In this document: positions 1,353-12,288 of the stretch, piece after piece
How the letters are laid out: every line of letters begins with the position of its first letter
Numbering within the stretch: the first letter of the stretch is position 1
Source: Oscillospiraceae bacterium
GTDB taxonomy: Bacteria > Bacillota > Clostridia > Oscillospirales > Acutalibacteraceae
Length of the DNA: 37,224 nt
Reading direction: 5' to 3'
Assembly (NCBI GenBank): GCA_015065505.1
Contig: SVQE01000022.1
Coordinates: 1 to 37,224 of the forward strand
Made by a program: the position numbers and the translations under genes
Notes under the pieces: generated by a model
The model's input: the letters and a program-made list of their open reading frames with translations, nothing else
Told to the model about the DNA's origin: nothing
Database searches by the model: none

Positions 1353-2267
1353 TTATTCAAATTTTACTGTGCATTCCTTTCTTATTCTGCCTTTTGCAGT
1401 GGGCTGCCACTTTGTTCCAAGCTTAATATCTGATTCTTTTTTATTAATTTTGATATCATTAAGTCTTGTGCAGTTAAAGAATGCATAATCGCCGATTTCT
1501 TTGATGTTTGAGCCGATTTTAACTTTAGTAATCTTATCAACATATGCAAACGCATCTTTGCCGATATATTCCAAAGTTTCAGGCATATCAAAATCAAGAA
1601 GCTCATAAACCTGGAAAAAGGCTTTTTCACCGATTGTTTTTAAGTTTTTCGGGAAATGAGTTATATTAAGGAAATAACATTTATAGAATGCCTTAGGTGC
1701 AATTTCTTCAACTTCGTCGGGAATTTCATAGGTTGGAATATCCTTATAGGTTTCAACCTCTTCTTTATCCTTACCGATTTTAATCTTTTCTTTCTTAAGC
1801 TTAACCTGACCGTATTTATCAAATTCAACACCCTTTGCAGGAGGATAATAAACAATAGTTTTCATATCCTTTGTGAATAAAACACCGTCAACAGCTGTGA
1901 AATACTCATTTTCGGGGTCAACTGCAAATTCAACCAATCTCTGGTTGTTTGTCATTGCCCATGAACCGATTTCCTTAACATTTTTGCCGATGGTTATTTT
2001 TGTTAATGATTCAGCATTGCAAATACCGAAATCGGCAATCTTGGTGATGGGATAGCTTTTGCCGTCTATCTCATATTCTGCAGGAATGTTATATTCCTTA
2101 ATAGTTGTTCTGTCTGTGTAGCCGGTTATTGCGATTTCGCCCTTTTCAAGCTTGAATTTTGAGTTATCAAGCGGGTCGGTTGAAGTGAAGCTGAGCTTAC
2201 AGCCTGAGAAACAAGCTGCGATAACAGTCAGAGTAAGCAGCAAGGTAATAATTCTTTTAGCTTTCAT
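1353..2267 (-). CDS. Lipoprotein with BspA-type leucine-rich repeats (LRR_5)
   Basis: The protein has 304 residues. It starts with a lipoprotein signal peptide: positive N-terminus, hydrophobic core, and lipobox FSGC with the lipidated Cys at residue 23. It should therefore be anchored on the outer face of the membrane. Two blocks of LRR_5 repeats follow, roughly residues 73-130 and 178-280, with the typical 'ITKIADFGICNAESLTKITI' and 'LKTIGEKAF' spacing. An insert rich in Lys and Glu lies between them. BspA-like repeats are ligand- or protein-binding surfaces; the partner here is unknown. The ATG overlaps the stop codon of the transporter gene by one base (TAATG) and has GGAGG upstream, so the two are translationally coupled. 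Family is confident; function is not. Confidence 0.85.
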   Translation of the reverse strand: MKAKRIITLLLTLTVIAACFSGCKLSFTSTDPLDNSKFKLEKGEIAITGYTDRTTIKEYNIPAEYEIDGKSYPITKIADFGICNAESLTKITIGKNVKEIGSWAMTNNQRLVEFAVDPENEYFTAVDGVLFTKDMKTIVYYPPAKGVEFDKYGQVKLKKEKIKIGKDKEEVETYKDIPTYEIPDEVEEIAPKAFYKCYFLNITHFPKNLKTIGEKAFFQVYELLDFDMPETLEYIGKDAFAYVDKITKVKIGSNIKEIGDYAFFNCTRLNDIKINKKESDIKLGTKWQPTAKGRIRKECTVKFE

Positions 2268-4018
2268 TATGCAGTTACCTCCTCTGTTACTTCGTCAGTT
2301 ACTTCATCGCTTTCAGAATCATCGGTTTCATCCGAATCATCTGTATCAACTATAGCTTCGCCTTTAAGAGCAGCTTCTCTTTCAGCAATTTCAGCAACAC
2401 ATTTATCATGCATTTCTGCAGTGAGGTCGTAGAACAGGAACGGAAGCGTTGACAACAGCAATCCGACAACTCCCAGAATTACATATGTTTCCATAACCTT
2501 TGTGAATACGGTGTCGTCGAAGAGAACGTCCCAGTCGGAAGTGAAGCCGCTGAGCTTGAAGAGTGCGGGCGAAACAAGTCCGAGAAGGGTTGCAACGGGA
2601 GTTGTGAACCATCCGAATATGTTAATCATATTATCTGCACGCTCGCCTGTTTTCCACTGATGATAGTCGAGAATATCTGCATTAAGACCGTCTGTAATAC
2701 CGTTACAAGCAGCCGACATACCGCTTCTGAGGAAAATCATAAGTGCAAGCAGCGGAACGCTGTTGCCGTTATGTAAGCCGAGAAGATATCCTGCAGTAAT
2801 AATCATCCACGCAGTACGGAAGAAGATAATTGATTTTTTCTTATCGAATTTTTTAACCATGAGAGGAGTTAACAGGTTACCTGCAACGGATGAAATACCA
2901 AGCAGGCTGATAATACCCGTGAACCACTCAATACGAAGTGAGTAAATCAGGCAGTAGTTAATAACGCCGTCTGCGATTGCATTCCACAAGCCGAAGGTGG
3001 ATGCGATATTAACTATCCAGAAATATTTATTCTTCAAAAGAGTTTTAGCACTCTTTTTGAAACTGATTTTCGGCGTTGCCTCTCTGTTTTCAGCAACTCT
3101 TTCCTTAACTCCGATAATCATAAAGCCCATTAATACAGAAGCAATGGAGATAATCGGAACGAATACCTGATAGGATTTAACGCTGAGGTAGCCGCCTGTC
3201 TGCTGAATCATAATCGGGAATATGATTCTGAAGATTGAACGGAAGAAGCCGAGGAAAATAGCTCCGATTGAATAATACTTCTGACGCTCAACAGTGTTAG
3301 GAGTAATAAGAGCGATGATAGCCTTCGGGTTATCCTGATACAAAGCAGAAAATCTTGTTCTTAATGTAAATAAGAAATGGAGAATAACAAGCTTTGTTGT
3401 GTAATCAAGAGTTGTTGGAACGAACGGAATAATGCAGGTAATGATTGTTACAGGGATTCCGTACATAACAAGGAAGGGCTTATATCTGCCGTATTTCTGA
3501 CAGAACTTAGCTCTTAAGAACCAGTTAACAAGACCGCCAACACCCGTTATAACAAGGATGTTTGCAATAATCTGAGGCATACCCTTGATAATTGCTTCAA
3601 ACGGCTCCTGGGGAATGAAATAGAATCCAATACCAACAATAGTGCACGCAATAAATGAAATTGCAGCAATCTTACCTTGTTTCTTTGAAAGCTTACCGAG
3701 GTTTTCAAAAATGGTCATACTCAGTGACTCAAGATAAAGCGTTGCATACTTAACAATGAGTGCAAGAATTGTAATGACTGTGAAATCCATTAACTTGATT
3801 TCAAAAATAGAACCGCAAAGATAACCTGCCGTGAAAGCAACGGTATCGTTACAGATGAATGTGAAACCGCAGATACCCATCATACCAAAGCAGTATTGAA
3901 GGAACTCTCTGATATTGGTGTACTCGCCCGGTTTCGGAGTTTTCCAGTTAGTCTTAAGGGCAGTAATTAAGTCGCCGACTATCTGTTTTAGTGACTTTTT
4001 TTGTTTAGTTTCTCCCAT
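2267..4018 (-). CDS. MFS transporter, GPH (sugar:cation symporter)-like
   Basis: This is a polytopic membrane protein of 583 residues with about 12 hydrophobic segments between residues 45 and 535. The overall pattern is that of the glycoside-pentoside-hexuronide:cation symporter branch of the major facilitator superfamily (long Lys-rich N-terminal cytoplasmic stretch, FGLWNAIADGVINY-type helix, HQWKTGERADNMINIFG region near the C-terminal half). It is longer than the usual ~450-500 residues. The extra length includes a strongly acidic C-terminal tail (last ~25 residues mostly Asp, Glu, Ser, Thr). The substrate cannot be read from sequence. It is the first gene of a two-gene operon with the LRR lipoprotein, has its own promoter, and uses GAAAGGGGAG as ribosome site. 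Confidence 0.8.
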   Translation of the reverse strand: MGETKQKKSLKQIVGDLITALKTNWKTPKPGEYTNIREFLQYCFGMMGICGFTFICNDTVAFTAGYLCGSIFEIKLMDFTVITILALIVKYATLYLESLSMTIFENLGKLSKKQGKIAAISFIACTIVGIGFYFIPQEPFEAIIKGMPQIIANILVITGVGGLVNWFLRAKFCQKYGRYKPFLVMYGIPVTIITCIIPFVPTTLDYTTKLVILHFLFTLRTRFSALYQDNPKAIIALITPNTVERQKYYSIGAIFLGFFRSIFRIIFPIMIQQTGGYLSVKSYQVFVPIISIASVLMGFMIIGVKERVAENREATPKISFKKSAKTLLKNKYFWIVNIASTFGLWNAIADGVINYCLIYSLRIEWFTGIISLLGISSVAGNLLTPLMVKKFDKKKSIIFFRTAWMIITAGYLLGLHNGNSVPLLALMIFLRSGMSAACNGITDGLNADILDYHQWKTGERADNMINIFGWFTTPVATLLGLVSPALFKLSGFTSDWDVLFDDTVFTKVMETYVILGVVGLLLSTLPFLFYDLTAEMHDKCVAEIAEREAALKGEAIVDTDDSDETDDSESDEVTDEVTEEVTA

Positions 4019-4049
4019 AGGGACTCCCCTTTCTTAATTAGTCCATATT

Positions 4050-4078
4050 ATTATATATAAATTTATACAAATTTTCAA
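4050..4078 (-). promoter_or_regulatory. Promoter of transporter-lipoprotein operon
   Basis: On the minus strand, TTGAAA (4073-4078), a 17-base spacer and TATAAT (4050-4055) lie about 30 bases before the transporter start codon. This is a well-spaced sigma-A promoter. Confidence 0.65.
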
Positions 4079-4110
4079 TAGATTAAGAAAAACTTTTGTC
4101 TAAATTAAAA

Positions 4111-4147
4111 ATAAACAAAAAAACAAGGCGGATATTGAATCCGCCTT
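4111..4147 (-). terminator. Rho-independent terminator ending the small-gene island
   Basis: The arms AAGGCGGAT (4125-4133) and ATCCGCCTT (4139-4147) close on an ATTGA loop. On the minus strand the stem is followed by GTTTTTTTGTTTAT. It lies just after the 186-residue gene and probably ends the transcript of the RHS-associated island. Confidence 0.85.
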
Positions 4148-4186
4148 AAATGTTTTTATAGATTATTGAAATACTGTCAGTTCGTT

Positions 4187-4747
4187 TTATTCATATTCAA
4201 TATCAACACTATCGGGATAGCTATCTTGTTCAACAAAGCAGCTATACAGATTAAAGCTTGCATTCTTTCCGTTCAAATCAAATGAATATGCTTTCAATTC
4301 TGCATTGACTCCATCAATTTTTAACTTTTTGCAATCAGCAGGCACAGCTCCCACATATACTGAACCGTAATACTTATTGCCTTTCTTTATTTCATATTGC
4401 GGATGTAGAACAATGTTATGATAGCTTGGATTAATCATCTCATTTTCTTCAATAGTGAAATTAACATAAATGTTGTGTCTGTTATTTAAAAGTCCCTCAA
4501 CTTTCGCTATAGTAACAACAAATTCGTATTCATTATTATCAGAAGAATTATTTAAAAATGAATAGACATATAGAGTTTGACCTCCGATAGTATGGCTATC
4601 GCCTATATACTCTGTGTTTTTAACCGGATTAATATCAATACCGAAATCATCGTTAATATTTTTGGGAAGCATGTTTTGAACAAGAGCAGTTATTGCTATA
4701 AAAGCAACAACGGCAATTAAAATAATTCTAATTTTTTTATTTTTCAT
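4187..4747 (-). CDS. Hypothetical membrane-anchored protein (186 aa)
   Basis: I do not recognise a family. Residues 1-25 are a short basic stretch followed by a hydrophobic helix (IRIILIAVVAFIAITALVQ) without a clear cleavage site, so the protein is probably a type II membrane protein with an external domain of ~160 residues. That domain is rich in alternating polar and hydrophobic residues, suggesting beta structure, and carries a single Cys near the C-terminus. AGGAGG sits 7 bases before the ATG. It is the last gene of the minus-strand run of small membrane or secreted genes that follows the RHS gene, so it could be an orphan immunity gene or accessory protein. That role is inferred from position only. 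Confidence 0.6.
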   Translation of the reverse strand: MKNKKIRIILIAVVAFIAITALVQNMLPKNINDDFGIDINPVKNTEYIGDSHTIGGQTLYVYSFLNNSSDNNEYEFVVTIAKVEGLLNNRHNIYVNFTIEENEMINPSYHNIVLHPQYEIKKGNKYYGSVYVGAVPADCKKLKIDGVNAELKAYSFDLNGKNASFNLYSCFVEQDSYPDSVDIEYE

Positions 4748-4783
4748 ACAAAACCTCCTATGCTAATTTTCCTGCAAAAGATT

Positions 4784-4885
4784 ACAGGGGACGGTGTTCT
4801 CTGTATTAAGCTATTGTGGAATACAGGGGACGGTTCTCTGTATTAATTTTTTTCATTGTAAAACGAAGAACCGTCCCCCGTTTTA
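4784..4885. repeat. GGGGACGG hairpin repeat, copy A
   Basis: This copy has two left arms (ACAGGGGACGG...TCTCTGTATT at 4784-4807 and 4823-4844) and one right arm (GAAGAACCGTCCCCCG). The inner left arm can pair with the right arm. One of five copies in this 1.5-kb region, all in the same orientation. Confidence 0.8.
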
Positions 4886-5056
4886 TTTTCCCTGTTAAAT
4901 TAAATCAAGAAGATATATCAAGCAAATAACGAGTGTTATAAGCAGTATAACTAATAATGAAATAATAAAAAAGGAATGCATGATTAAAGGCTTATCAAAA
5001 ATATTAAAAAAATGAATGCAACTAATTACTACTAATAATATTAACATAGCAATTAA
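4885..5056. repeat. 172-bp exact duplication, copy 1
   Basis: This stretch is identical base for base to 5822-5993 (offset 937). It covers the last ~54 codons of the 64-residue membrane protein gene plus 10 bases after its stop. Identity ends abruptly at the inner edge of repeat D in the other copy. Confidence 0.93.
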
Positions 5057-5089
5057 AACAGATAGCAAAACTTTATTCTTTTCATTCAT
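4895..5089 (-). CDS. Small two-helix membrane protein (64 aa)
   Basis: The product is almost entirely two hydrophobic helices (about residues 8-24 and 38-58) joined by a short FFNIFDKPL-type loop. No family was recognised. An upstream in-frame GTG at 5101 would give 68 residues, but it lies inside the ribosome site GAGGGGTG, so the ATG at 5089 is preferred (MNEKNK). Its 3' part is present a second time as an exact copy at 5822-5993. The gene lies between repeat copies A and B, in the island downstream of the RHS gene. In size and topology it resembles the membrane protein directly coupled to RHS, so a spare immunity gene is possible but unproven. Confidence 0.6.
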   Translation of the reverse strand: MNEKNKVLLSVLIAMLILLVVISCIHFFNIFDKPLIMHSFFIISLLVILLITLVICLIYLLDLI

Positions 5090-5110
5090 ATTATTGGTCA
5101 CCCCTCAATG

Positions 5111-5180
5111 GAATACGTGGGACGGTTCTCTGTATTCAGTTATTTACTTTGCGACACCAAGGAACCATCCCTTGCTTCAT
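5111..5180. repeat. GGGGACGG hairpin repeat, copy B (degenerate)
   Basis: The left arm is ATACGTGGGACGGTTCTCTG and the right arm is AAGGAACCATCCCTTGC. The linker CAGTTATTTACTTTGCGACACC is the same as in copy C, so B and C share a recent origin. Confidence 0.75.
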
Positions 5181-5195
5181 ATCAATTCATATTAT

Positions 5196-5627
5196 TCAAC
5201 CCAGTGTGTATTCTTTGAATGAATCAGTATTGTACTTGTTTTCAAAATCAGAAATAGAAAGCGTGTCTAAAAGCTTCTTTTGCTTTAGATCAATCAAATA
5301 TACACTTTTTTCATCATAAACACACAATTGATTATTGTTGTACAAAAACTTTGAAAATACTCCTTTACAAAGGATACTGTAATTATCTGTATAAAAACTA
5401 TTGTTTTGAGCGTTACTAGTAAGTATAAGATCTCCATGATCAATATATACAATATCTTCATCAACTTTTTTGTCAACTAAAAACAAATTATCATTGAATT
5501 CATAAACGATTTGACTTCTCAAGAAATACGACTTAATTGAATCGTTATTATGTTTTAAAATGAATATTGCGGTAATTATAACAAAAACTAATAATGATAG
5601 AATTACCAAATAATGCTTTTTTTTCAT
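5196..5627 (-). CDS. Hypothetical membrane-anchored protein (143 aa)
   Basis: No family was recognised. The N-terminus (KKK, then a hydrophobic helix LVILSLLVFVIITAIFIL) is an uncleaved signal anchor. The outer part of ~115 residues alternates short hydrophobic strands with Asn/Asp turns, including two blocks (FNDNLFLVDKKVDEDIVYID and YDEKSVYLIDLKQKKLLDT) that look like beta-propeller or WD-like blades, though too few for a propeller. GAGGAG precedes the ATG at good spacing. The stop lies 15 bases from repeat copy B and the gene is framed by copies B and C, whose linkers are identical. It may have been inserted or retained between them by recombination. Confidence 0.6.
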   Translation of the reverse strand: MKKKHYLVILSLLVFVIITAIFILKHNNDSIKSYFLRSQIVYEFNDNLFLVDKKVDEDIVYIDHGDLILTSNAQNNSFYTDNYSILCKGVFSKFLYNNNQLCVYDEKSVYLIDLKQKKLLDTLSISDFENKYNTDSFKEYTLG

Positions 5628-5708
5628 AACTACTCCTCACTTTTTAACATTATAAGTGAAGTATATCCCCCAATAATAAGAATAAAAAACGCCCTTCTCT
5701 TGTGGAAT

Positions 5709-5823
5709 ACAGGGGACGGTTCTCTGTATTCAGTTATTTACTTTGCGACACCAAGGAACCGTCCCATGTTTCATGTATTTAGTTAATTTCCTTCAAAATA
5801 CAAGGAACCGTACCCCGTTTCAT
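5709..5823. repeat. GGGGACGG hairpin repeat, copy C
   Basis: One left arm (ACAGGGGACGGTTCTCTG) is followed by two right arms (AAGGAACCGTCCCATGTTTC and AAGGAACCGTACCCCGTTTC). The second right arm runs straight into duplication copy 2. Confidence 0.8.
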
Positions 5824-5993
5824 TTTCCCTGTTAAATTAAATCAAGAAGATATATCAAGCAAATAACGAGTGTTATAAGCAGTATAACTAATAATGAAAT
5901 AATAAAAAAGGAATGCATGATTAAAGGCTTATCAAAAATATTAAAAAAATGAATGCAACTAATTACTACTAATAATATTAACATAGCAATTAA
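5822..5993. repeat. 172-bp exact duplication, copy 2
   Basis: This is the exact partner of 4885-5056, with no mismatch seen over 172 bases, so the duplication is recent or maintained by conversion. It is joined on one side to repeat C and close to repeat D (6001) on the other. Confidence 0.93.
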
Positions 5994-6065
5994 CAATGTT
6001 ACAGGGGACGGTTCTCTGTATTTAGTTGATTTCTTTGCGAAACAAGGAACCGTCCCCTGTTTCAT
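5832..6065 (-). pseudogene. Chimeric ORF: repeat-encoded N-terminus on truncated membrane protein
   Basis: The reading frame stays open for 77 codons. Residues 1-23 (MKQGTVPCFAKKSTKYREP...) are translated from hairpin repeat D, and residues 24-77 are identical to the end of the 64-residue membrane protein encoded at 4895-5089. The true 5' end with its ribosome site is missing, and no Shine-Dalgarno precedes the new ATG. I read it as a copy decapitated at repeat D, most likely silent, although the frame has stayed open across the join. Confidence 0.65.
6001..6064. repeat. GGGGACGG hairpin repeat, copy D (complete)
   Basis: This is the cleanest copy. The arms ACAGGGGACGGTTC (6001-6014) and GAACCGTCCCCTGT (6047-6060) pair perfectly over 14 bp around a 32-base linker, and TTTCAT follows. 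It makes a good reference unit for the family. Confidence 0.85.
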
Positions 6066-6138
6066 TTATAATTGAAATTACGAACAAAAATACCGATAAT
6101 AAAATTAAACTTCGATGAGCGTATTTTAAAGCTTTCAT
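6022..6138 (-). pseudogene. Truncated small membrane protein gene, cut by repeat D
   Basis: GAGGCGATTTAT precedes an ATG at 6138 with a proper ribosome site. The ORF begins MKALKYAHRSLILLSVFLFV, a basic start and a hydrophobic helix like those of the neighbouring small membrane proteins. After about 25 codons it runs into repeat D and stops inside it (total 38 residues). It is a real gene start whose remainder was lost at the repeat. The start does not match that of the duplicated 64-residue gene, so two different genes were joined here. Confidence 0.6.
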
Positions 6139-6196
6139 ATAAATCGCCTCACTTTACTCGATATAGTCCGGTAGGTTTCCTGAAATAATATTTATT

Positions 6197-6287
6197 ACAG
6201 GGGACGTTTCTCTGTATTTAGTTATCTCCTTCAAAACAAGGAACCGACACCTGTTTTATACAAATCAGGGTCCGTCCCCTGTTTCAT
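6197..6287. repeat. GGGGACGG hairpin repeat, copy E
   Basis: One left arm (ACAGGGGACGTTTCTCTG) is followed by two right arms (AAGGAACCGACACCTG and AGGGTCCGTCCCCTGTTTC). The outermost right arm ends at the base before the stop codon of the RHS-coupled gene. Confidence 0.8.
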
Positions 6288-6482
6288 TCACCATTTAAAA
6301 TAGTCTCTATAACGATAAAAGTTTACAATAATCATTAATATAAAAGAAACTCCAAATACAATTAAACTTGGAATGGGTGAACGTTTTGAATGCTCTATAT
6401 TACCTCTTATAATATATCCGTTGCTAAACATAAATAACGAAAAGGTAATTATTGAAATAATTTTGTATATTGTATCTTTCAT
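6288..6482 (-). CDS. Two-helix membrane protein, candidate RHS immunity protein (64 aa)
   Basis: The protein has two hydrophobic helices (about residues 8-25 and 39-55) linked by a polar stretch (RGNIEHSKRSPIPS), ending in a basic/aromatic tail (YRYRDYFKW). Its ATG overlaps the RHS stop codon by four bases (ATGA), so it is translated immediately after the RHS tip. That placement is the hallmark of immunity genes in polymorphic toxin loci. An all-membrane immunity protein fits a toxin tip that itself looks membrane-inserting, as in pore-forming colicins and their immunity proteins. No family was recognised; the immunity role is inferred from coupling and topology. Confidence 0.65.
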   Translation of the reverse strand: MKDTIYKIISIITFSLFMFSNGYIIRGNIEHSKRSPIPSLIVFGVSFILMIIVNFYRYRDYFKW

Positions 6483-9400
6483 ACTTTATCCCACCCTTCA
6501 ATTATTTTGAAAGTAAATTTTCCAAAACCTCGTTTCTTAACGCGAATAACTAAATCTTTTCCATTATTATGGCGTTCTAATCTAGTTGCCATTAGATTAA
6601 TATATCCACATATTACTCCACACGTGCCAGTAAATACCGCATCCACTATAGTTGGAACAACACTCCCGCCATCAGTAACTGGTAATAGCGCTAATCCAAT
6701 CGCTATTCCCGCACCACCAATAGCTGCAATAATGCCTATTATATCAGCGCTTGATTGTAAGTTTAATATAACTTTTTTTACCTCCTTTTTTTCAATAAAA
6801 ATGTATAAATACTTATAATCAGTCTTAAATCTTGATATTAATTTATTTAGTTTATCAATGTTTTTTGCTAAATCCTTTAATGCATTTTCTATCTTTTTCT
6901 TAGCTTTGTCAGATAGTTTCTTCTTGCTTCCAGTTGGATCCTCATTATTCACTGGATCATTACAACAGTATGCAAACAGATTAAGCCCGTTAACTTCGTC
7001 CTTACAATACTGCGCTATTTCCGGAATATCCGCATTTATAAATCTGCAAATTGAAGGGTCATAATATCTTGATTGAAGATAGTAATACCCCGTTTCATAA
7101 TCATAGTAATAGCCGCGGTAAAGAATCGGGTTGATTTGTGAAAGAAGAAGGTGTTCGGGATTTGTGTCGTTAGTATTTGTATAATCAATACTATGAACTC
7201 CGCCCCATTCATCATATTCATACTGGAATAATTCAAGCCCGTCTTCATCCGTTACAGCCATAACATCATTTTGCTGATTGGTGATATAGAGATACTGCGT
7301 TCCGTTGAAAACAACACCTATCGGCGCTCCGAAATTATCGTATTCAAAAACCATTGTGTTTGTTCCGTCAGTTTGAGAGAGGATAACTCCGTCGCGAGTA
7401 TTGAACTGAGTTGTAACTCCGTTAACGGTTTTACTTGTTCTTATTCCGTTTTCATCATATGTGTATGAATATGAATCGTCGCCCTCGGTTACGCTTGCAA
7501 GATTTCTGCCTGCGCTCCATGTGAAGCTTCTGTTTCCGAAGGTTAAAACGTTTCCGTTTGCGTCATAGGTTAAACTATCATTATTAACAGAAACGAGTAT
7601 ATCAGTCCAGCCTGATTGCGCATATGTGAAGCTTGTATTTGTTTTTTGAGTTGTGTTTATGGGTGTGTTTCGGGTGAATTTATACTTGATTTTGCTTGTT
7701 ACATTTCCTCTTGAATCATATGCATAAGTTGCGGTGTGAGTTGGATAATAATTAATATTAGCGCGAGTTATCTGACCATTGCTGTCGTAATAATAATCAT
7801 TATCATATCCTGAATAACCGTATCTTATAATTTGATTCGAGGAGTTATATTCTTCAAGAATATCATATGTAAAACATCCGCTATAATCTGTATATTCAAC
7901 GCTTTTTTCCGATATATTTCCATTTTCATCATATTCATATTCAGAGGAGCCCGAAACGGAATTATTAAATTTAAGCGAATCCTCGGTTATATTATAATCC
8001 TCACCCTCTTCATAGGAATACTCAATTTCGTTATTTCCTGTTGAATGAGTTATTGAATTATTCTTGATAACCGTTGAATATGCCGTTCCGAAATGGTTTT
8101 CGGATATATCTGTTTCGGCTTCAATCTGATTCGCTTCATCCTCTTCTATTTCGGTTGCCGAGTAGGAATAAACAAGGGAATTATCCGAAATTTTGCGAAC
8201 CTCATAATCCTCGCCGTCATAAATATATTTCAAGCCCGTATCAGTGTTTATCTTTTGTTCGAGCTCGCCATTGTCATAGATATATGTTAAATACGGCGTT
8301 GAGGAGTTATTATGATACTGATACTGCAAATTACCGCTGACGTCATCATAAACATAACGAATTGAGTCGCCGTTTGCATAAACGGTTGCGGTTAAAGTAA
8401 CTCCGTCATTTTGATATGTGTTTGAAACAGTTGTTACATTAGCTATTTTTACCGCCGTTTCCATTCCTTTTACATTATAATCAAATTCATATATATCAAA
8501 GGATTCAGTTGCTTTTTCACCGGTTGGATGATAAGTATATGTTGTTTCAACACCAAGGCGGTTTGTTTCCGAGGTCAAGTTTCCTGTTGTGCTATCGTAG
8601 ATATAGGTGTGACCCGCGGTTGAATCGGAATAGGTGTTTTCACTCGGCAAGCCTTCAAGCGTTTCGTCATAATCCTTAGGCTCAATTTCCTGAACAACCC
8701 TGCCAAGATTATCATAGAGCGTTCTTGTTATCTCTCCGTTTTCATTTGAAAGAAGAGTTTTGCCGGCAGCGTCATAAATATATGAAGAGTTATCATTTCC
8801 CGTTGCCGAGGTTAAAAGATTGCCGAGGCTATCATACGTATACGTTGTAACGGTTGAAACAGGCTCGTTATTTTCAATTTTAGTATATGTTTCCTGAGTT
8901 ATATTTCCAGCCGTATCATAAACATAGGAATAACTCTCGCCGTTGCTCAAGGTTTCGCTTAAAACTCTTCCGCTGCTATCATAAGTATACGATATTGTAT
9001 CAAAGCATGTCAAGGTGTTATCGTAAACGCTCGGAGCAGTTCCTTCAAAGCCTTCCTTTAAGGTTGCATATATAAGAATGTTTCCGTTATTATCATATGT
9101 ATAGTACTGATGGCTGTCGTCATATTGCTCATGAATCAATCTTTTGTTGTTATCGTAGGTATAACTTGCACTGTAGTTTTCATCACCTCCGGTGACTGTC
9201 ATTGATTCCAGCAAACCGCTGTTTGAGTTATACGTATATGATGTTACTTCATTTCCAACCGTTTCGGTTGCCACTCTGAATTTGCTGTCATATGTATATG
9301 CTGTTGTTGTTCCGTATTCATCGGTATATGAAACGGGAAGGAACGCATCGTTATACACTGTTGATGTTGTTTCGCCCGACGAGGTTAAGGTGGTATACAG

Positions 9401-10498
9401 CTTTTGATTATCCGTGTATGTATACTGTATCCAAGAACCGTTATCGTAGGTTATTTTTTTCAATCTTCCGTTTGAATAATACTCAATTGATTTATCATTG
9501 CTTTTAGTCATTCTGAAATCAGATGCATTATTAACATACTGATATTTTCCGAGATATGCGCCTGATTGGTCTTTAACCTGAATATATCTTCCCCACTTAG
9601 TTGTGTATTCAATATCGTTGTTATTCGGGTCGGTTATTGTTTTAACGCTGTAGTACTGAACATCAGGGTCATTAACAGCTTCAACCGCTTCATAATCTGA
9701 AACTGCAAAGGTTCTTGAGCCGTCTGTTATTGATATTTCATCAGAATTTGTTGTTCTTGTAAGATTTAAAGTATTGCCGTTATAATCCTCTATAGCGCTG
9801 AGATAGGCAATGCTGTTTAAAAGCCTTATTGCAAAATGATATTTATATTCGCCGTCATCGTAAAGATATTCGCTTGAAGTTTTGGTTACGGTTTTTCCGG
9901 TTATCTGGTCAACATATGTGTTTGCTGCAGTTCTGATAAAAGGCGTTTCACTGCCATCCGGCAGGGTTACCTTAAGATAGCTTCCTGCGGTTGCAATTTT
10001 TGAATGAATTGATTCAAACCAGTTTTTATCTGCGCTGTTATATATTCTTGTATACCCGAAATCGATTCCGTTATAGGAAAAATCGAAATCAGTTGAATAA
10101 TCGGTGTAAACTCCGATTGCTTTATCCGTGTTTGAAAAATTATTGTATATTTCAGTGCCTTTATTTCCGATTTTGGCATAAACGGTTGTTGTTTGATGCG
10201 CAGGAATAGTAAACGGCATAGAATAATCAAACCAGGTGTTTCCGTCAAAGCTGTATTTAAGAGTTGTTGTATCCGAATAGTTTTCTCTGTATAATCCAAC
10301 AAGTTCACCGTATCTATAAAAAATCGGAACGGGATTAAGAGATGCTTTTGCAACAATCTTCTCTCTCAAATCAATGTAATCCGAAAGCAAAAAGTTATCA
10401 ACCGTCATTGAAACAAAGGTTCCGAAAGCAAGGATTAACGAAAGTGTTAAGCTGATAATTCTTTTGGTTATTCTGGGCTTATAAGATTTTTGTTTCAT
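6479..10498 (-). CDS. Secreted RHS/YD-repeat protein with variable C-terminal tip (candidate polymorphic toxin)
   Basis: The protein has 1339 residues. Residues 1-31 form a long signal peptide (basic start, hydrophobic core 14-31). Residues ~50-260 are a beta-rich N-terminal region. From ~290 to ~1125 there are many YD repeats (YTYDSSGRVLSE, YVYDTAGNITQE, YIYDAAGKTLLS). Residues 1126-1190 are the RHS-associated core (TGYYYLQSRYYDPSICRF, then NLFAYCCNDPVNNEDPTG). The tip after DPTG is 149 residues: a Lys-rich charged helix region (1191-1252), two hydrophobic Gly-rich helices (1253-1274 and 1279-1304) and a cationic end. No nuclease, deaminase or ADP-ribosyltransferase motif is visible. RHS shells encapsulate a C-terminal toxin; the pore-former reading is my inference. 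AAAGGAG precedes the ATG. The downstream coupled gene is the likely immunity gene. Confidence 0.88.
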   Translation of the reverse strand: MKQKSYKPRITKRIISLTLSLILAFGTFVSMTVDNFLLSDYIDLREKIVAKASLNPVPIFYRYGELVGLYRENYSDTTTLKYSFDGNTWFDYSMPFTIPAHQTTTVYAKIGNKGTEIYNNFSNTDKAIGVYTDYSTDFDFSYNGIDFGYTRIYNSADKNWFESIHSKIATAGSYLKVTLPDGSETPFIRTAANTYVDQITGKTVTKTSSEYLYDDGEYKYHFAIRLLNSIAYLSAIEDYNGNTLNLTRTTNSDEISITDGSRTFAVSDYEAVEAVNDPDVQYYSVKTITDPNNNDIEYTTKWGRYIQVKDQSGAYLGKYQYVNNASDFRMTKSNDKSIEYYSNGRLKKITYDNGSWIQYTYTDNQKLYTTLTSSGETTSTVYNDAFLPVSYTDEYGTTTAYTYDSKFRVATETVGNEVTSYTYNSNSGLLESMTVTGGDENYSASYTYDNNKRLIHEQYDDSHQYYTYDNNGNILIYATLKEGFEGTAPSVYDNTLTCFDTISYTYDSSGRVLSETLSNGESYSYVYDTAGNITQETYTKIENNEPVSTVTTYTYDSLGNLLTSATGNDNSSYIYDAAGKTLLSNENGEITRTLYDNLGRVVQEIEPKDYDETLEGLPSENTYSDSTAGHTYIYDSTTGNLTSETNRLGVETTYTYHPTGEKATESFDIYEFDYNVKGMETAVKIANVTTVSNTYQNDGVTLTATVYANGDSIRYVYDDVSGNLQYQYHNNSSTPYLTYIYDNGELEQKINTDTGLKYIYDGEDYEVRKISDNSLVYSYSATEIEEDEANQIEAETDISENHFGTAYSTVIKNNSITHSTGNNEIEYSYEEGEDYNITEDSLKFNNSVSGSSEYEYDENGNISEKSVEYTDYSGCFTYDILEEYNSSNQIIRYGYSGYDNDYYYDSNGQITRANINYYPTHTATYAYDSRGNVTSKIKYKFTRNTPINTTQKTNTSFTYAQSGWTDILVSVNNDSLTYDANGNVLTFGNRSFTWSAGRNLASVTEGDDSYSYTYDENGIRTSKTVNGVTTQFNTRDGVILSQTDGTNTMVFEYDNFGAPIGVVFNGTQYLYITNQQNDVMAVTDEDGLELFQYEYDEWGGVHSIDYTNTNDTNPEHLLLSQINPILYRGYYYDYETGYYYLQSRYYDPSICRFINADIPEIAQYCKDEVNGLNLFAYCCNDPVNNEDPTGSKKKLSDKAKKKIENALKDLAKNIDKLNKLISRFKTDYKYLYIFIEKKEVKKVILNLQSSADIIGIIAAIGGAGIAIGLALLPVTDGGSVVPTIVDAVFTGTCGVICGYINLMATRLERHNNGKDLVIRVKKRGFGKFTFKIIEGWDKV

Positions 10499-10580: not shown

Positions 10581-11003
10581 TTAACTATATGTTTTTTGAA
10601 CATTTTTTGTTATTTTGTCGTCCGAGCCGCCTGTTCCCGATATAACAAAAACAACGTGAGCACGATAAGTGCCTGTGCTTGAAAGCTGAACGGAATGACT
10701 CTTTGAATAATTGGTTGAAGTTGAATTATCGGTCCAGCTTCCGCCGCTTACTGTCACCCAGATTATGCCAACCTTCTTTTGGACTTTTGTTGTTATTGTT
10801 GCACTTTGAAAATAGCCGGTTCTGCCTTTATAGCTGTTTTTAACCGTAGCATATCCTGTACTTGAAATTGCAAACGAGGTTGTTGCTGATTCTGTATTAT
10901 TATATCTGTATATTATTTCATCATCAGAATCACTTGCGTATGCAACTGTTGTTAGTCCAAACACAAACAAAAAGCACAACAATAAAGCAATAAATTTTTT
11001 CAT
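10581..11003 (-). CDS. Small secreted protein, unknown family (140 aa)
   Basis: Residues 1-25 are a classical signal peptide (MKKFIALLLCFLFVFGLTTV, with cleavage probably after AYA). The mature ~115 residues are Ser/Thr/Gly-rich with alternating hydrophobics (ATITTKVQKKVGIIWVTVSGG, TYRAHVVFVISGTGG), suggesting an all-beta, Ig-like or C2-like sandwich. It has no Cys. An upstream in-frame ATG exists, but AGGAGGTG is placed for the start chosen here. It lies between the sigma/anti-sigma pair and the RHS gene on the same strand, so it may be an export helper, a wall-binding partner or a separate sigma target. The ribosome site is in a long hairpin (see 11013-11065). Confidence 0.7.
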   Translation of the reverse strand: MKKFIALLLCFLFVFGLTTVAYASDSDDEIIYRYNNTESATTSFAISSTGYATVKNSYKGRTGYFQSATITTKVQKKVGIIWVTVSGGSWTDNSTSTNYSKSHSVQLSSTGTYRAHVVFVISGTGGSDDKITKNVQKTYS

Positions 11004-11012
11004 AACAAAACA

Positions 11013-11065
11013 CCTCCTTCCCTTGTTGCTTATATTGCCTACAATATATACAACAAGGAAGGAGG
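11013..11065 (-). promoter_or_regulatory. Long hairpin covering the ribosome site of the secreted-protein gene
   Basis: The arms CCTCCTTCCCTTGTTG (11013-11028) and CAACAAGGAAGGAGG (11051-11065) pair over 15 bp with one bulge. The loop itself folds as TATATTG/CAATATA (11031-11037 with 11042-11048), giving a nearly continuous stem of about 22 bp. On the minus-strand RNA the 3' arm contains the Shine-Dalgarno AAGGAGG of the 140-residue protein, so folding would hide it. The stem is followed by TGTTTTGTT, so it could also act as an attenuator after the anti-sigma gene. Confidence 0.6.
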
Positions 11066-11084
11066 AAAAATGTGACATAAATAA

Positions 11085-11759
11085 TTATATTTTTTCAGAA
11101 ATATTTTTTGCAATATCAACTAATTCATTGTTAATTTTATCAGGAACAGATATTTCAAACCAATATTTATTATTTGTCCACGCTAATAATGTATTAATGC
11201 CGCTCCCGTGAATATAACCCGGAAAACCATTAACTTCTGTTTTTTCGTAATAATGCTCGTTATCTATTGAAATGTCAGAATTAAGAATATCTTGAGTAAA
11301 AACAATCTCTTCACCCTTTTCGTTTTCCCAAATTGCAAATACGCCTAATTCGTCTGACTCGTATTGTTTTAGCTCAAAGCCTTCGGGAACATATCCGAGA
11401 GTGTAGGCGGTTTCAATTGTTTCGGGAGTTGGAGCTGAATTCTCACTCAATGTAATCTGAGTGTTGGTTGAAAACACTCTTTCAATGAATTCAACAATTT
11501 TTTCTCTTGAAGCCGAAACGCTCATCAAGCCTGTTAAAAGAATGATTAATGAGATAATCGCTGCAATTAAAGCTCTTGAAAGCTTCTTTCTTGAAGCAAA
11601 GCTTATGCGCTTGTCCTTATTAATGAGCTTATTCATTTTTCTTTCAAAGGCTTCGGAAAAGTCAAAAGGAAAGCTATCTTTATCAAAATATTTTTCTGTT
11701 TCAATTAAATCCGCTTCCAAAAACGCTTTAATAAATAATTCCTTTTCAGCAGTCATCAT
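11085..11759 (-). CDS. Putative anti-sigma factor with DUF4367 domain
   Basis: Residues ~1-55 are a charged, helical N-terminal region likely to be cytoplasmic (EADLIETEKYFDKDSFPFDF, FERKMNKLI). One transmembrane helix follows at ~60-80 (ALIAAIISLIILLTGLMS). The outer part carries TLGYVPEGFELKQYE, FAIWENEKGEEIVFTQ and NGFPGYIHGSGINTLLAW, the pattern of DUF4367 domains. Proteins of this build are commonly encoded beside ECF sigma factors and presumed to hold them at the membrane. The start is the ATG at 11759 behind AGGTGAT; GTG at 11765 and ATG at 11756 are alternatives. It overlaps the sigma gene by 14 bases, supporting the pairing. The signal sensed is unknown. Confidence 0.75.
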   Translation of the reverse strand: MMTAEKELFIKAFLEADLIETEKYFDKDSFPFDFSEAFERKMNKLINKDKRISFASRKKLSRALIAAIISLIILLTGLMSVSASREKIVEFIERVFSTNTQITLSENSAPTPETIETAYTLGYVPEGFELKQYESDELGVFAIWENEKGEEIVFTQDILNSDISIDNEHYYEKTEVNGFPGYIHGSGINTLLAWTNNKYWFEISVPDKINNELVDIAKNISEKI

Positions 11760-12288
11760 TATCACCTATTACATTTAATAATTCAGCTTTACCCCTTATT
11801 ATTCGAGTGCTCACAGTGTTTGGCTTCAAATCAAGCAAGGAAGCAATATCCTTTATTTTCATATCGCAAACATAGTGATAATACATAGGGATTTTATAAA
11901 TATCCTTAAGATTTTTTATAGCCTCAACAACAGCTTCATAGCTTTCTTTTTCAAAAAGCATATTGAAAAAATCTTCGTCGGAAATTTTGAGGTTATCGCT
12001 GTATTCAAGAAATTTGATTTTATTATTCTTATTATAGATATTAATTGCTGAATTTCTTGCCGCCTTAATGCAATATGAAAGCGTTCTTTTTGAAATTGCC
12101 TCATCAATTGATTTCATATTATTTGCAATGCCAACGAAGGCGTTGTGAACTGCGTCTTCCGAATCCTGCTTATTATTAAGAATCTCAAAAGCAGCGGCAT
12201 ACATTCTTTCCCTATATTCATAATAGATTATTTCAAATTTACTTTTATCCTTATCATCATCAATAAGGGTTAAATAAAAGAAGAGCAT
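11746..12288 (-). CDS. ECF-type RNA polymerase sigma factor (sigma-70 family)
   Basis: The protein has 180 residues. Region 2 is at ~22-60 (YYEYRERMYAAAFEILNN, then QDSEDAVHNAFVGI, the usual core-binding and -10 region), followed by a variable linker. Region 4 is at ~118-170 (IYKIPMYYHYVCDMKIKDIA, SLLDLKPNTVSTRIIRGKAEL), a helix-turn-helix for the -35 element. Regions 1 and 3 are absent, as in ECF sigmas. AGGAG lies before the ATG. The overlapping downstream gene encodes the presumed anti-sigma, and the secreted protein and RHS genes follow, making them plausible targets. The target promoter sequence cannot be assigned from one locus. Confidence 0.85.
   Translation of the reverse strand: MLFFYLTLIDDDKDKSKFEIIYYEYRERMYAAAFEILNNKQDSEDAVHNAFVGIANNMKSIDEAISKRTLSYCIKAARNSAINIYNKNNKIKFLEYSDNLKISDEDFFNMLFEKESYEAVVEAIKNLKDIYKIPMYYHYVCDMKIKDIASLLDLKPNTVSTRIIRGKAELLNVIGDNDDC

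Follow-up and report, generated by a model that had tools for sequence, protein, structure and literature searches.

A 37,224-nucleotide stretch of an Oscillospiraceae bacterium genome (contig SVQE01000022.1, assembly GCA_015065505.1), hereafter the window, encodes an RHS protein that ends in a variable, hydrophobic tip and is coupled to a gene for a small two-helix membrane protein. We consider it very likely that these genes form a polymorphic RHS toxin-immunity cassette, with a toxin and an immunity protein in some form. The orphan tip is probably membrane-depolarising and paired with a minimal membrane immunity protein; at a probability of roughly 55%, we propose that the pair acts by analogy with Tse5/Tsi5 and with the ionophores of contact-dependent growth inhibition (CDI). 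What carries this reading is the observed architecture of the cassette, its variability, the coupling of the two genes, their hydrophobicity, and a genus-wide link between the topologies of tips and next genes. The features of the locus are as follows.

6479-10498, minus strand: RHS open reading frame (ORF), 1339 amino acids (aa), ATG start.
6929..10498, minus strand: RHS shell, residues 1-1190, with a signal-like hydrophobic N-terminal segment and YD repeats up to the DPTG core end.
6482..6928, minus strand: variable tip, residues 1191-1339 (149 aa), a predicted membrane-active toxin, based on the drop in identity and hydrophobic windows.
6833..6910, minus strand: amphipathic Lys-rich helix, tip residues 7-32, based on a low-confidence AF2 model and the helical moment.
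6677..6742, minus strand: first hydrophobic helix, residues 1253-1274, with GxxxG at 1264-1268.
6587..6664, minus strand: second hydrophobic helix, residues 1279-1304, with GxxxG at 1294-1298.
6482..6559, minus strand: charged C-terminal tail (tip residues 124-149), which may form a beta-hairpin according to the low-confidence AF2 model.
6288..6482, minus strand: 64-aa two-helix membrane protein with an ATG start and an ATGA overlap with the RHS gene, the predicted immunity protein.

Profile searches recognised the RHS shell. The RHS repeats were significant in Pfam (PF05593, E 4.2e-30), as was the RHS core domain in NCBIfam (TIGR03696 over residues 1095-1190, E 6.5e-17). The core terminates in ...CCNDPVNNEDPTG at residue 1190, where a P-x4-DPTG motif, the putative place of RHS self-cleavage, can be read by eye, and the tip begins at residue 1191. 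At the other end of the protein, a basic start precedes a hydropathy window of 1.96 at residue 14, which makes the N terminus signal-like by hydropathy alone. The RHS protein had three Pfam matches up to E 1, and these included no PAAR-like domain, no LXG domain at the N terminus, and no cell-wall anchoring domain, although short sorting motifs were not searched. The front half of the protein matched one named record, SVQF01000005.1, from a metagenome-assembled genome of an Oscillospiraceae bacterium.

Both the tip and its partner are more hydrophobic in places than their composition predicts. The two best non-overlapping 19-residue windows of the tip had hydropathies of 2.43 and 1.64; the first value was reached by 31 of 2000 shuffles and both values by 3 of 2000. 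Tip residues 7-32 had a helical moment of 0.64, which none of 5000 shuffles of that stretch equalled, and the first 60 residues account for +11 of the tip's net charge of +14. For the partner, the corresponding windows were 2.42 and 1.52 (first reached by 26 of 2000 shuffles, both by 0 of 2000). The single-sequence AF2 model of the partner is a helical hairpin with helices at residues 2-31 and 39-63 and a mean pLDDT of 77.6. The AF2 model of the tip has a mean pLDDT of 48 and serves as a guide only; it places helices at tip residues 7-32, 60-80, and 90-114 and strands at 38-45, 48-53, 124-134, and 137-144. An earlier, sequence-only reading had described an RHS core ending in DPTG, a 149-residue tip with a Lys-rich helix and hydrophobic helices at residues 1253-1274 and 1279-1304, and an ATGA-coupled 64-residue two-helix gene. 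The PF05593 and TIGR03696 matches, the hydropathy windows, and the helical moment agree with the first part of that description, and the confirmed overlap and the modelled hairpin agree with the second.

The tip and the partner differ from the core in conservation and composition. Core-end searches gave matches in 31 of 80 genomes of the genus, the source genome counted. Relative to its three nearest relatives in the genus (L094, L092, and L044), the core retained 33-77% identity per 119-residue block, with the minimum at residues 834-952, whereas identity in the tip was 9-12%. In two further relatives (L053 and L065), identity was 23-57% per core block and 11% across the tip. The post-core stretch is therefore not invariant among relatives, and the suggestion that it is a variable tip stands. 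Third-codon-position GC content was 21.5 in the tip and 20.3 in the partner, as against 33.8 in the core; sampled 149-codon windows of the core ranged from 25.5 to 39.6, and none was as low as the tip. A low value common to the tip and the partner, unlike the core, is what would be expected of a single exchangeable cassette. In the 80 genomes, the tip matched only itself at E <= 0.001 (next best, E 0.0023), the best match of the partner after itself had an E value of 0.018, and the coupled 64-aa gene occurred only with this tip.

Wider searches left the tip a sequence orphan. We searched viral contigs, genome contigs, plasmids, the genus (79 other genomes), and overlapping samples of the family (397 other genomes), order (393 others), and phylum (397 others), and we found no convincing relative in any of them. 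There were 9 weak matches in the genus (E 0.0023-0.063) and 11 in the order sample (E 0.0038-0.0098), and the phylum sample added a single one at E 7e-4. Where reading frames were inspected (2 of 9, 9 of 11, and 1 of 1, respectively), none was RHS-tip-like; several are, presumably, M23-peptidase-like coiled-coil, MscS-like, nitronate-monooxygenase-like, and membrane-fusion-protein-like sequences, judged by eye. Pfam and NCBIfam searches with the tip returned nothing significant, and thus no sign of the known non-toxin domain that the sequence-only reading had weighed. None of nine PDB sequence matches to E 10 was named as an RHS protein. In a fold search, the tip model found no match at E <= 0.001, and the low confidence of the model makes that search uninformative. 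Sub-threshold PADLOC matches to LeoB, LeoBC, BnzA, and TmtA (E 2e-4 to 7e-3) were taken as compositional, because the Lys-rich helix and the hydrophobic stretch fall inside much longer profiles. A match to the pore-forming alpha-xenorhabdolysin subunit A (E 0.095; structure XaxA, E 4.6) was too weak to use, and four PHROGs of unknown function matched at sub-threshold E values of 0.01 to 0.1.

We compared the topology of tips with that of the gene that follows them across the genus. Parsing of 60 fetched regions and three loci yielded 101 core-tip junctions, and 69 cassettes in 35 tip clusters were kept. The 32 junctions that were dropped had tips shorter than 100 aa (17) or longer than 340 aa (2), lay at a contig end (1), or failed on the next ORF (12: 7 without an ORF of at least 50 aa starting at -40 to +100 nt, and 5 with a next ORF longer than 330 aa). 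Tips were classed as near-start when hydrophobic segments occurred only near the tip start (60-residue cut) and at least 60 residues followed. Segments were called from hydropathy windows, in which signal peptides and membrane anchors are indistinguishable. Each cluster was represented by its upper median, and recounts used the lower median or left out three mixed-class clusters. Control ORFs were 100-330 aa long; this set begins at 100 aa and was drawn partly from loci fetched for repeats.

Hydrophobic segments lay internally or C-terminally in the tips of 14 of the 35 clusters, the window's tip included. The next gene had at least one segment in 13 of these 14 clusters and at least two in 10, and the corresponding counts among control ORFs were 20 and 6 of 53. 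For two or more segments the difference from controls was significant (10/14 vs 6/53, Fisher P = 2e-5), and it held when the window's own cluster was left out (9/13 vs 6/53, P = 6e-5). Near-start tips made up 11 of the 35 clusters, and the next gene lacked any hydrophobic segment in 8 of the 11, as against 1 of 14 for internal or C-terminal tips (Fisher P = 0.002). The remaining 10 clusters had segment-free tips, among them a family matching Amidase_6 (E 1.8e-17) and another whose weak match to Zn-dependent phospholipase C, at E 0.0012, fell short of the curated cut-off; all 10 had a next gene with at least one segment. The recounts gave similar results. With the lower median, next genes of internal or C-terminal clusters had at least one segment in 12/14 and at least two in 9/14 (P = 1e-4 vs control), and segment-free next genes followed near-start tips in 8/11 and internal or C-terminal tips in 2/14 (P = 0.005). 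Without the mixed clusters, these values were 12/13 and 9/13 (P = 6e-5) and 8/10 vs 1/13 (P = 7e-4). Counted per cassette, the next gene had at least one segment for 26/29 internal or C-terminal, 24/24 segment-free, and 5/16 near-start tips.

Individual loci show the same pattern. Tandem RHS genes in one genome (G075) do not differ over their first 3174 nt, counted from the start codon, and diverge thereafter. In the first gene, segments lie at residues 9 and 43 of the tip and the following gene has none; in the second, one segment lies at tip residue 145 and the following gene has two. The closest architectural parallel to the window's pair is locus L055 in genome G033, where the gene immediately after a 145-aa hydrophobic tip encodes 64 aa and has two segments. 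Our results suggest a rule by which tip topology tracks next-gene topology across the cassettes of the genus, a simple and testable predictor of where unfamiliar RHS tips act. They also divide the sequence-only proposal of a membrane-active tip with an all-membrane partner. The pairing gained from the genus-wide association, and the remark that such a tip would be unusual for a Gram-positive RHS protein found no support: with internal or C-terminal hydrophobic segments in 14 of 35 clusters, membrane-type tips are common in this genus.

Several observations weigh against a membrane-depolarising tip. The thresholds of the tip classes were fixed after the tips had been viewed, and the window's tip escapes the near-start class with its first segment at tip residue 63, barely beyond the 60-residue cut, though it also falls short on the second cut, with about 40 residues after its last segment instead of 60. 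Next genes with at least two segments did not differ significantly between internal-type and segment-free tips (10/14 vs 4/10, P = 0.21), and membrane next genes are therefore common overall (26 of 35 clusters). No pore domain matched the tip significantly by profile, sequence, or fold, and the AF2 model of the tip is poor (mean pLDDT 48). The glycine motifs of the tip are two isolated GxxxG and two AxxxGxxxA, with no GxxxGxxxG and no strict glycine zipper of the form (G/A/S)xxxGxxxG or GxxxGxxx(G/S/T) (PMC12744356). Finally, in the case of TelE, the cited passages report that the adjoining membrane protein was not its immunity protein (PMC10434224).

Two alternatives take the tip to be a toxin of another kind, and we regard both as improbable, to about the same degree. 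The hydrophobic helices could be a delivery device whose cargo, for instance the charged C-terminal tail, is the toxic element that crosses the membrane. Near-start tips, with their 11 clusters and mostly segment-free next genes (8/11), look as expected of delivery helices, but the helices of the window are internal, with only some 40 residues after them, and membrane helix accounts for nearly the entire product of the next gene. Alternatively, the tip could insert and bind a particular membrane protein or lipid, with no pore, and the partner would protect or mask that target. The missing strict glycine zipper would suit such a tip, as would the two strand pairs that flank the helices in the low-confidence AF2 model. 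Against it, nothing points to such a target, and the two-helix immunity proteins described in the cited passages pair with depolarising toxins (PMC9637101, PMC10684867, PMC11630599).

It is considerably less plausible that the tip is non-toxic and anchors a surface RHS protein in the membrane of the producer, with the small partner assisting. The hydrophobic C-terminal part and the signal-like N terminus would serve an anchor, but relatives carry unrelated tips at the same position (the Amidase_6 family at E 1.8e-17 and the weak phospholipase C match at E 0.0012), and the tip and partner are unique whereas the core is conserved. Least likely of all is a membrane-bound enzyme or a decayed, inactive tip, which the orphan status of the sequence would allow but which the intact frames, the tight coupling of the genes, and the lack of a significant match to any catalytic family speak against.

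For the membrane-depolarising reading, we infer toxicity, pore formation, protection by the partner, and export of the RHS protein, and we propose the following mechanism. The RHS protein would be exported via its signal-like N terminus, and the YD-repeat shell, judging from the RHS family, would enclose the tip until delivery. The Lys-rich amphipathic helix would contact the anionic face of the competitor membrane, and the two hydrophobic helices would enter that membrane as a hairpin and then oligomerise. The tip would act as a non-enzymatic toxin that depolarises or permeabilises the competitor membrane. The 64-aa hairpin, seated in the membrane of the producer itself, would block insertion or assembly of the tip. 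A membrane hairpin as the sole partner fits a toxin that attacks the cytoplasmic membrane from outside.

The experimentally described membrane-depolarising RHS tip that we found in the open-licence literature is the Gram-negative Tse5. Among Gram-positive systems, TspA is reportedly a membrane toxin of the type VII secretion system (T7SS) with a membrane immunity protein, and is not an RHS protein. Comparisons with other systems follow the cited passages. Tse5 of Pseudomonas aeruginosa is, like the protein described here, an RHS protein with a C-terminal tip; that tip forms membrane pores and depolarises, and its immunity protein Tsi5 resembles the partner in having two predicted transmembrane regions (PMC9637101, PMC10684867). 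Tse5 differs as a type VI secretion system effector with a PAAR-like N terminus, where the window's protein has a signal-like one (PMC9637101, PMC10684867). It has been argued that Tse5 needs no cytosolic immunity since the RHS barrel encloses the toxin (PMC12744356). The CdiI proteins of CDI ionophores (CT-EC93 group) are very hydrophobic two-helix hairpins of 72-100 aa, slightly longer than the 64-aa partner, and their toxins likewise occupy the C terminus of a large surface protein, with an entry part followed by a membrane part (PMC11630599). However, that surface protein is CdiA, not an RHS protein, and the predicted fold of the ionophore is a five-helix bundle (PMC11630599), whereas the low-confidence tip model has three helices and two strand pairs at a mean pLDDT of 48.

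TelE and EsxX, which are Gram-positive antibacterial membrane toxins, would resemble the tip on the proposed reading, but they are T7SS substrates with an LXG domain and not RHS proteins, and the T7SS membrane toxins have a glycine zipper, of which the tip lacks a strict form (PMC10434224, PMC12744356). Unlike the partner, their DUF5085 immunity proteins are described as non-membrane; EsxX is also listed with a membrane immunity protein, like the partner (PMC10434224, PMC12744356). WapA-type RHS proteins are Gram-positive and have a signal peptide and a variable C-terminal toxin with an adjacent immunity gene, to which the signal-like N terminus, the variable tip, and the predicted immunity gene of the locus would correspond, but Streptococcus suis WapA-CT1 exceeds 3100 aa, has a wall-anchoring part, and is described with SrtB and SecF-like partners, compared with 1339 aa in the window (PMC12704120). 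The W-TIP domain is a two-helix membrane toxin, and Imm17 and Imm-CdiI are two-transmembrane (TM) families like the partner (PMC3482391). As described, the TIP motif of W-TIP lies in helix 2 and its RxxR in helix 1, and Imm17 has two TM segments with WxW and an R between them (PMC3482391). The tip contains no TIP tripeptide and no RxxR in its first hydrophobic helix (one RxxR follows the second), and no WxW was found in the partner.

Since the PAAR-like N terminus, LXG domain, strict glycine zipper, and W-TIP and Imm17 features were not found, we do not claim membership in the Tse5, CDI ionophore, glycine-zipper LXG, W-TIP, or Imm17 families. A more tentative idea, which we hold with less than even confidence, is that the tip is the founder of a new non-enzymatic membrane toxin family on a secreted Gram-positive RHS shell. 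The predicted order of such a family would be amphipathic helix, beta-hairpin, helical hairpin, and beta-hairpin. Under the same tentative idea, the genus would hold an envelope-directed arsenal in which segment position tells action on the membrane (membrane immunity) from passage through it (soluble immunity). If the pair works as proposed, the combination of shell, membrane toxin, and tiny membrane hairpin would recur in a Gram-positive setting, with a 64-aa two-helix immunity protein and another route of export.

Other tips of the genus gave two side observations. Five loci (L055, L081, L049, L095, and L059) have tips with a C-terminal hydrophobic motif in common, one member being linked only weakly (best E 0.06); the next genes of four encode 219-242 aa with hydrophobic segments near residues 140-175, and that of one encodes 64 aa. 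Kinship of the window's tip with this family was unsupported: hhalign gave a probability of 0.1 and a rank of 56 among 78 tips, although thin profiles make this a weak test. One genome (G073; L043-L048) contains 22 core-end matches, many of them in short ORFs with a tip and a next gene behind them, and is a large store of displaced tip cassettes.

Three further features flank the cassette.

10581..11078, minus strand: 165-aa protein, secreted-looking by eye, encoded upstream of the RHS gene.
4187..4747, minus strand: 186-aa protein with one N-terminal hydrophobic segment.
4780..6302, no strand: REPIN-like palindromic repeat array among small ORFs.

The 165-aa protein has a partial homolog (82% over 71 aa) 44 nt upstream of an RHS gene in G033:C7 (L056). 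Within the window, positions 10581-12288 upstream of the RHS gene encode this protein, a DUF4367 protein, and a sigma-70-family factor of extracytoplasmic function (ECF) size; the three are possibly regulators or a partner of the RHS gene. The 186-aa protein has a homolog (41% over 159 aa) downstream of the tandem RHS pair in G075 (L059), making an accessory or orphan immunity gene possible.

The first palindrome core of the array starts 6 nt past the stop codon of the partner gene, and four folded stretches gave z scores of -3.8 to -8.0. Its 13-mer core, CAGGGGACGGTTC, has 8 copies in the genome at up to 1 mismatch, 7 of them within 4780-6302. Exact 13-mers occurred in 27 of 80 genomes, seven of which also had RHS matches; in those seven, 9 of 12 sites lay at RHS loci, and a tenth adjoins an ORF in L157 that resembles an RHS fragment by eye. 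On G047:C39, G048:C10, and G061:C38, 4 of 5 exact sites were within 70 nt of the stop of the next gene. Most RHS loci lack the repeat, which was present (at up to 1 mismatch) in 4 of 60 fetched regions. We rejected the palindromes as an RHS-specific signal because they also occur beside RAYT-like genes, identified by eye, in other genomes of the genus; the source genome itself has five Y1-transposase-family matches. The array looks like a REPIN/RAYT repeat able to gather at toxin-immunity islands. Two small hydrophobic ORFs within it (5832-6065 and 4895-5101) are near-identical and form a 197-nt direct repeat at 97%. The start of the first falls within a palindrome, which makes its initial codons translated repeat, and this ORF has the look of a truncated copy. 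A locus in a genome that lacks any RHS core match (L143, G042:C36:16000-26000, positions 1752-7728) holds eleven small ORFs in a row, 7 with one hydrophobic segment, with five copies of the palindrome core among them, and looks like a polyimmunity island.

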